A DNA stretch of 51,918 nt. Source: an uncultured Bacteroidota bacterium (GTDB lineage Bacteria; Bacteroidota; Bacteroidia; UKL13-3). Each line of letters opens with the position of its first letter. Within the stretch, counting starts at the first letter, position 1. The position numbers and the translations under genes were made by a program. The stretch spans positions 1 to 51,918 of the forward strand of contig CAIUQQ010000354.1 of assembly GCA_903901345.1 (NCBI GenBank). Reading direction: 5' to 3'. Positions 2,372 through 42,032 of this stretch are shown here, piece by piece. The notes under the pieces were generated by a model, which was given only the letters and a program-made list of their open reading frames with translations, had not been told where the DNA came from and made no database searches.

Positions 2372-2410
2372 ATGGACGATAGTCGTTGGACGATAGACGA
2401 TAGTTGATAG
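2372..2410. repeat. GACGATAG-type simple repeats
   Basis: Short degenerate runs of GACGATAG occur here. The reverse complement CTATCGTC/GGTCTATC recurs at 2466-2479, 2806-2865 and 10336-10350. A clean tandem of the same motif lies at 4358-4385. It is a dispersed low-complexity repeat family restricted to gaps between genes. Confidence 0.6.
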
Positions 2411-2479
2411 AAGATAAAAAATTAAGATTAGCACTTTTAATAAAATAGGCTATTCCCAACAAATCAACTATGGTCTATC

Positions 2480-2800
2480 TTTTATAAAAATAAAACTTGT
2501 ACCGAAGTAAATTTAACCATTATTTTTTTTAACAACTCCGAAGAGGTGTTGAATTTGAATAACCCTGCATGAAATGCAGGGAAAATGACAATACACATCA
2601 AAACAACTCTGAAGGAGTTGAATATTTTACAAAAAATATTTAATATTATAACACAATTCTGAATAACATAGTCAAATTTAATTTCCATGTTTTTAGCTTT
2701 TCAACTCCTTCAGAGTTGTTTTTTTAAATTATTAATTTCATCACCGAGTTTCACTCGATGCTATTCAAATTCAACTCCTTCGGAGTTGCTAATTTTAAGA
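2480..2800. repeat. composite inverted repeat flanked by 19-bp direct repeats
   Basis: The roughly 570-bp gap between lptB and the next gene has no credible coding sequence. Its core holds four copies of a 17-19 bp palindromic motif of the type CAACTCC-n-GGAGTTG: 2533-2551, 2604-2620, 2702-2718 and 2772-2788. The last two are in the opposite orientation to the first two, and the middle pair are exact reverse complements. A hairpin CCCTGCAT/ATGCAGGG (2563-2581) lies between the first two copies and a second hairpin around 2745-2762 between the last two. The sequences beside them also match in mirror order (GTTGAATTTGAATA on both arms). AAATCAACTATGGTCTATC stands directly before (2461-2479) and after (2801-2819) the unit. 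Confidence 0.8.
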
Positions 2801-2924
2801 AAATCAACTATGGTCTATCGTCTATAAACCATGGTCTATCATCTATGGTCTATCGTCTATTAACTATTAACCGTTGTCAATTTTGTTCAATTCATGGCAA
2901 TTGTTATCTTCGCCAACCAAAATA

Positions 2925-4320: not shown

Positions 4321-4357
4321 TTCCTATTGAAAAAAATGTACTTTCGCACCTCGATTA

Positions 4358-4385
4358 GACGATAGACGATAGACGATAGACGATT
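4358..4385. repeat. tandem 7-bp repeat GACGATA x4
   Basis: Four units of GACGATA (the last ends in T) lie between the glycosyltransferase stop and efp. A second dispersed motif, CTGAGCGTAGTCGAAG, follows at 4424-4439. If transcription of efp starts near 4350, both elements would lie in its leader. Confidence 0.8.
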
Positions 4386-41588: not shown

Positions 41589-42032
41589 GCCACAGATTCA
41601 CAGATTATTTTTATCGGTCGCTGAGCTTGTCGAAGCGTTGCCAAAGATTACACAGATTTCACAGAATACCATACGGCCCGTTGTTGTGTCTCCTGATCAA
41701 CAACTTTTGCCACAGATTCACAGATTTCACAAAATACCAAACTGCCCGTTGTTGTGTCTCCTGACCAACAACTTTTGCCACAGATTTCGCAGAATATTTT
41801 TTTCGGTCGCTGAGCTTGTCGAAGCGTTGCCACAGATTCACAGATTTTACAAAATACCAAGCTGCCCGTTGTTGTGTCTCCTGACCAACAACTTTTGCCA
41901 CAGATTCACAGATTTTACAAAATACCTTACTGCCCGTTGTTGTGTCTCCTGATCAACAACTTTTGCCACAGATTCACAGATTTCACAAAATACCAAACTG
42001 CCCGTTGTTGTGTCTCCTGACCAACAACTTTT
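41589..42032. repeat. tandem array of seven GCCACAGATT units
   Basis: Units start at 41589, 41640, 41709, 41777, 41829, 41897 and 41965. Five are long (68-69 bp: GCCACAGATTCACAGATTTC, then ACAAAATACC, CTGCCCGTTGTTGTGTCTCC, GACCAACAACTTTT). Two (41589, 41777) are short (51-52 bp) and in place of the latter half carry CGGTCGCTGAGCTTGTCGAA followed by GCG, a separate dispersed repeat. Long units are nearly identical to one another. An inverted end TCTGTGTAATCTGTGGC follows at 42112-42128. The gap of about 600 bp between the peptidase and GT39 genes holds no credible gene; overlapping open frames only read through the repeats. Confidence 0.93.

Follow-up and report, generated by a model that had tools for sequence, protein, structure and literature searches.

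Inverted pairs of triple-stem repeat modules in a Bacteroidota genome and their association with a subclass 1.2 Y1 transposase gene

An intergenic unit in the genome of an uncultured Bacteroidota bacterium is built from two REP-like modules in inverted orientation, an arrangement that also encloses a transposase gene on another contig of the same genome. Our preferred interpretation is that the unit is a non-autonomous element of REPIN-like type which a subclass 1.2 transposase processes, a reading to which we assign a probability of roughly 0.78.

Layout, folding and copies of the unit

The host genome (G000) is a Bacteroidota-type assembly of 3.80 Mb in 414 contigs, one of which (C354) is the window, the whole 51,918-nt stretch of DNA that was analysed. 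The unit lies between divergent genes, with a minus-strand ABC-transporter gene (Pfam ABC_tran), which we take to be LptB-like, on one side and a plus-strand ORF from position 2925, which has no Pfam match, on the other. An earlier note on this DNA had described a mirror-symmetric repeat made of four CAACTCC...GGAGTTG palindromes, with a different hairpin in each arm and an exact 19-mer on either side. All four palindromes were confirmed, the leftmost being imperfect, as were the two different inner hairpins and both exact copies of the 19-mer. The features are as follows, where R1 is a covariance model made from modules of other genomes and C11 is the contig that carries the transposase gene.

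2375..2416, minus strand: left heptad array, a separate repeat family
2461..2479, plus strand: exact 19-mer, left copy, heptad-related
2533..2551, minus strand: outer palindrome P2 of the left module, imperfect, with a 2-nt insertion relative to the consensus
2552..2562, minus strand: left-module linker, reverse complement TTATTCAAATT, with conserved TATTNA..TT columns
2563..2581, minus strand: left-module inner hairpin of CCCTGCAT type, CCCTGCATGAAATGCAGGG; R1 matches 2533-2581 on the minus strand at 50.2 bits
2604..2620, no strand assigned: inner palindrome P1 of the left module, CAACTCTGAAGGAGTTG
2621..2701, no strand assigned: interior between the two P1 palindromes, its first half aligning to the 5' leader of the C11 tnpA gene
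2702..2718, no strand assigned: inner palindrome P1 of the right module, CAACTCCTTCAGAGTTG
2742..2760, plus strand: right-module inner hairpin of CACCGAG type, CACCGAGTTTCACTCGATG; R1 matches 2742-2788 on the plus strand at 63.2 bits
2761..2771, plus strand: right-module linker, CTATTCAAATT
2772..2788, plus strand: outer palindrome P2 of the right module, CAACTCCTTCGGAGTTG
2801..2819, plus strand: exact 19-mer, right copy, heptad-related
2806..2871, plus strand: right heptad array, a separate repeat family

The arms form inverted repeats of 23 nt at 100% and 31 nt at 77% complementarity. The mirror symmetry is real, but it does not stop at the boundary that the earlier note had drawn, since positions 2365-2411 are 79% complementary to 2835-2881. 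Among ORFs with 60 aa or more, just one lies for the most part within the unit (68 aa, 2482-2688, minus strand), and it is without support, in agreement with the earlier note's impression that no ORF there looks real.

Comparison of copies showed that one arm is one module. Reading outward, it consists of P1 (CAACTCCTTCRGAGTTG, 17 nt in its palindrome form), a spacer of ~22 nt, the inner hairpin, an 11-nt linker (CTATTCANATT) and P2. The stem sequences vary freely while pairing is kept, and the linker core TATT.A..TT is invariant; the complement of the linker TATTNA places T-N-AATA at the foot of the hairpin on the other strand. Among 32 sequences 96.1% of cells were paired, compared with 28-44% in slid controls, a percentage that is partly circular because these sequences had been selected for perfect stems. 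The variety of pair types is not circular: double changes numbered 122 versus 34.9 in shuffled data and occurred in 13 of 15 pairs, and the covariation score was 0.649 versus 0.201 after shuffling. Nor is the test on sites picked by the linker and outer palindrome alone, where a perfect inner hairpin was present at 72 of 155 sites (shuffled mean 3.1, maximum 8).

As DNA, the 264-nt unit folded at -60.4 kcal/mol, against -20.5 +/- 3.3 for shuffled sequences (z -12.0), and as RNA, a check that the earlier note had proposed, at -90.2 (z -12.3); none of 200 shuffles did as well in either case. This strong RNA fold, along with four terminator-like sites in the unit versus 0.2 in shuffles, would suit modules that act at the RNA level, as bidirectional terminators or mRNA-stabilising stems, with their proximity to the transposase gene reflecting insulation of a mobile gene. 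However, a terminator in the window unit would end neither neighbour, because the unit is upstream of both divergent genes. Nothing favours an RNA role over processing as single-stranded DNA, and an RNA-level function fails to predict the opposed pairing of modules, their density beside tnpA or their gain and loss at orthologous sites, so we regard it as unlikely. No Rfam family matched above threshold; SpF56 and MIR8562 came up below it, as chance matches.

A DNA search with the unit returned 30 matches in its own genome, the window unit included, and R1 at E 0.01 returned 31, of which 28 were full-length and lay in 19 places. Opposed modules occur in seven of these places, clusters that hold 16 of the 28 full-length modules, and inverted hairpin units dispersed in this way are the architecture of REPINs and BIMEs. 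P2 points outward in the window unit and at C107, and inward at C113, C174, C350 and C374. The earlier note had listed a double copy of a modular repeat among its possible readings, and the further module copies bear this out; together with relatives that lack the unit at this site and modules that flank a transposase gene, they also support its suggestion of a non-autonomous mobile element. We observed that contigs C27, C147, C178, C238 and C374 terminate in or near modules; the repeat has probably broken the assembly there, and the true copy number is thus likely to be higher than counted.

The transposase gene and its flanking modules

One cluster, on C11, contains three modules and a tnpA gene (G000:C11:15757-16200, 148 aa). 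Two of the modules enclose the gene in the same outward layout as that of the window unit, and we read the unit as a module pair like that around tnpA with the gene missing. The window interior aligns with the tnpA 5' leader, ungapped and at an equal distance from P1, with 25 of 33 positions identical, and only 3 of 500 shuffles scored as high. The right half of the interior weakly resembled the reversed tnpA 3' end, a match that was set aside, as 17 of 500 shuffles were as good.

The C11 protein matched Pfam Y1_Tnp at 76.5 bits and the NCBIfam IS200/IS605 model NF033573 at 61.4 bits, above the cut-off of 55, and weakly matched the solved ISHp608 transposase (2a6m, E 9e-4). With the model of REP-associated tyrosine transposases, NF047646, it reached 28.2 bits versus a cut-off of 80, below the level for class 2 membership. 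The published signature of TnpA_Y1 subclass 1.2 consists of Y---Q--HH, WQ and DH[IV]H with a median length of 148 aa (Quentin et al. 2018, PMC6006769). The C11 protein carries YIKTQEEHH, WQ and DHLH (not DH[IV]H), and by these motifs it is assigned to subclass 1.2. Among 78 stop-free homologues, Y---Q--HH is present in 75, [WF]Q in 78 and DH[LIVF]H in 72.

From 174 relatives we kept 80 homologue loci. An R1 match was found within 300 bp of the gene in 78 of the 80 loci, the exceptions being L167 and L180; at loci with both flanks available, at least one side had a match in 71 of 73 and both sides in 39 of 73. Match density was 3.9 per kb near the gene versus 0.10 per kb beyond 1 kb, and orientation was also constrained, with the nearest 5' match on the minus strand in 57 of 67 cases and the nearest 3' match on the plus strand in 44 of 49. 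R1 had been trained on 25 of the 80 loci; at the loci that contributed no training sequence, 53 of 55 had a match. A strict, model-free scan that accepted nothing but perfect stems placed 85 modules near the genes and 11 in far flanks (1.23 versus 0.07 per kb), with none in shuffled flanks; it scored no more than 35 of 76 flanks on the five-prime side and 25 of 77 on the three-prime side.

We also compared 117 related genomes, calling a C11-type gene at E 1e-40. Modules were present in all 16 genomes with tnpA and in 29 of the 101 without it (Fisher p = 3e-8); the 117 genomes are not mutually independent. R1 and this set overlap, as L102, L103 and L109, at the least, come from G001, G003 and G109. 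Module-bearing genomes without a close tnpA match include G002 (22 modules), G009 (29) and G006 (12), whose modules may be relics or may reflect missing assembly or another enzyme.

Modules in relatives that lack a close C11-type gene, and the presence of 12 Y1_Tnp matches in the host genome, are what would be expected if another Y1 protein, such as a class 2 TnpA_REP of the same genome, mobilised the modules and the C11 gene were a passenger. However, C11 alone shares a contig with an R1 match, none being found on the contigs of the other 11 Y1 matches, and the linkage to flanks in 78 of 80 C11-type genes also speaks against a passenger; we consider this alternative very unlikely.

Processing by the C11 protein itself is the preferred reading. 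The unit would represent two inverted REP-like modules, P2 outward and P1 inward, in the tnpA-enclosing layout minus the gene. The C11 TnpA, a Y1 HUH enzyme putatively of subclass 1.2, would bind the modules while they are single-stranded at the replication fork; its tyrosine would nick near the hairpins and the strands would be joined elsewhere, and modules and module pairs would thereby spread through intergenic DNA. Mobilisation of the modules, in trans, is what we infer, as are recognition of the hairpin with its T-N-AATA foot tag and the site of cleavage.

Sister genomes and the flanking 19-mer

The window site varies among sister genomes. The unit is present in G002 with its left module mostly deleted; G001 has heptads and one near-identical copy of the 19-mer (AAATCAACTATGGTCTATT) with no unit, an outcome of the search for empty sites that the earlier note had suggested; G003 has heptads and no unit; and G007 and G009 have neither. 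G000, G001 and G002 share the C174 pair, which G007, G008 and G009 lack; in G003 the match runs across the join. Three states were seen at the tnpA locus, with nothing in G008, a module pair without the gene in G007, and modules plus gene in G001 and G000; the difference between G001 and G007 is ~0.5 kb that carries tnpA, with a 17-bp overlap at the junction. Insertions extend past the outer palindromes by ~24 and 65 bp at C174 and by 53 and 12 bp in the window. Alignments at C107, C113 and C350 gave no clean empty sites. The changes may have run in either direction: some of the presence and absence patterns fit deletion between short direct repeats just as well, and the local tree does not separate G000, G001, G002 and G007. 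In G001, for example, the window state could have arisen secondarily, by a deletion from one 19-mer to the other.

A conventional MITE or composite transposon that inserted as one piece, with duplication of 19 bp of target DNA, could account for the exact 19-mer to the left and right of the unit and for the single near-identical copy at the G001 site, which lacks the unit. Insertions of such an element would repeatedly show the same ends and a brief target duplication. Here the ends differ, C174 has no comparable duplication, and the 53 bp that separate the left 19-mer from the unit gave no match elsewhere in the genome. The 19-mer also belongs to a family that occurs without the unit. Within 3 mismatches it was found at 14 genomic sites versus 4 for a reversed control, the exact form only at the two window places, and an exact copy of its 17-nt core (ATCAACTATGGTCTATC) is found on each of three other contigs (C231, C366 and C369), in no case with the unit; on C231 a single module lies ~8 kb from the core. 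To our knowledge, target duplication is not expected of single-strand Y1 transposition, which further counts against movement as a block, and we give that explanation very little weight. The 19-bp target duplication implied by the earlier note was accordingly dropped: as a boundary, the 19-mer is indeed exact on both sides, but it is part of a heptad array found on both sides, and its duplication may be pre-existing array sequence.

The heptad pattern occurred at 37 genomic places versus 0 for the reversed control. In the window, arrays of the type (TATSGTC)n are located at 2375-2416, 2806-2871 and 4356-4384; those at the unit stand in opposite orientation around a short core, which G001 and G003 keep without the unit. 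Heptad repeats of a different sequence, TAACTGA, are known in Beggiatoaceae and a few Bacteroidetes (PMC4679880).

Relation to known systems

The modules resemble the REP, BIME and REPIN sequences associated with TnpA_REP (RAYT) in being short, dispersed intergenic hairpins that often form inverted pairs, and the family is like a REPtron in its tie to one low-copy Y1 gene, which the repeats flank. They differ from TnpA_REP REPs in three respects: a module has two palindromes around one hairpin, making three stem-loops; the GTAG/GTGG tag 0-2 nt 5' of the hairpin is lacking and T-N-AATA stands at the foot instead; and the transposase is of class 1, whereas TnpA_REP is class 2. GTAG/GTGG tags define the REPs of subclasses 2.2, 2.4, 2.5, 2.7 and 2.8 (PMC6006769), and REP recognition by class 2 enzymes is described in PMC8266576. 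GTAG and CGTC repeats are described in PMC3733652 (Di Nocera et al. 2013), where CGTC-tagged REPs are palindromes that form dimers, also in Bacteroidetes, as the present modules do; the tag differs, and CGTC REPs are there without a dedicated transposase.

By profile, the closest named and curated family is IS200/IS605 (IS608) of subclass 1.1, which likewise has subterminal hairpins whose foot carries a short motif. In contrast to IS200/IS605 elements, of which several near-identical copies would be expected, the C11-type gene is single-copy in this genome and most module copies are geneless, and the ends of IS608 are not described as two opposed triple-stem modules. IS608 has the right guide GAAT and the right cleavage site TCAA (PMC5934647); the modules have similar sequences, TGAATA at the foot of the hairpin and TTCAA around the linker, a likeness that we offer as a lead only.

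Subclass 1.2 was reported without REPs and generally without typical IS200 terminal structures (PMC6006769), unlike the homologues analysed here, which have conserved structured flanks. As that classification described an IS200-related group with neither IS properties nor REPs, its substrate was left open, and a covarying DNA module beside 78 of 80 homologues is a concrete candidate. No description of these modules was found in searches of an open-access library, and a repeat family tied to subclass 1.2 Y1 transposases is apparently undescribed there; the accessible portion of a Chryseobacterium RayT paper (PMC11194056) mentions neither palindromes nor hairpins.

More broadly, and with slightly better than even confidence, the T-N-AATA triple-stem module may be a widespread partner of subclass 1.2 and form an additional REP super-family next to those tagged GTAG and CGTC; it would coevolve with its transposase in Bacteroidota and would still be mobile in the form of geneless inverted pairs such as the window unit. 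This reading, held at that same strength, extends to homologues labelled Chlorobiota, Ignavibacteriae, Calditrichia, Marinimicrobia, Cloacimonadota and others. The module's presence beside 78 of 80 homologues suggests an origin of REP-type domestication in class 1 in addition to class 2, and part of the palindromic intergenic repeats of Bacteroidota may be explained by these modules.

Other repeats were seen in the same genomes. A second Y1 gene of the host genome (C357, L080; 150 aa, YINNQHKHH) has by eye a similar flank layout with other sequences, namely GCCCTTTCAGGGC palindromes, a GCGAGGGGCGTTACCGCCTCGC hairpin and a TATCATATT linker, and these flanks may represent a further module family of this kind. 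A further Y1 gene (C82, L079; YILNQEEHH) adjoins a tandem array of units that contain AGTCTCGTAGAGACG. The window itself holds tandem arrays of 68 and 188 bp with CCACAGATTACACAGATTTCACA and GTTGTTGTGTCTCCTGACCAACAAC at 41589-42032. Another repeat, with CAACGGGTTTTAACCCGTTG and GTTCCGCTGGAACTCC-like palindromes, adjoins modules at G000:C136 (L096), C350 (L003) and G002:C290 (L243), and is nested in the C174 insertion in G002.
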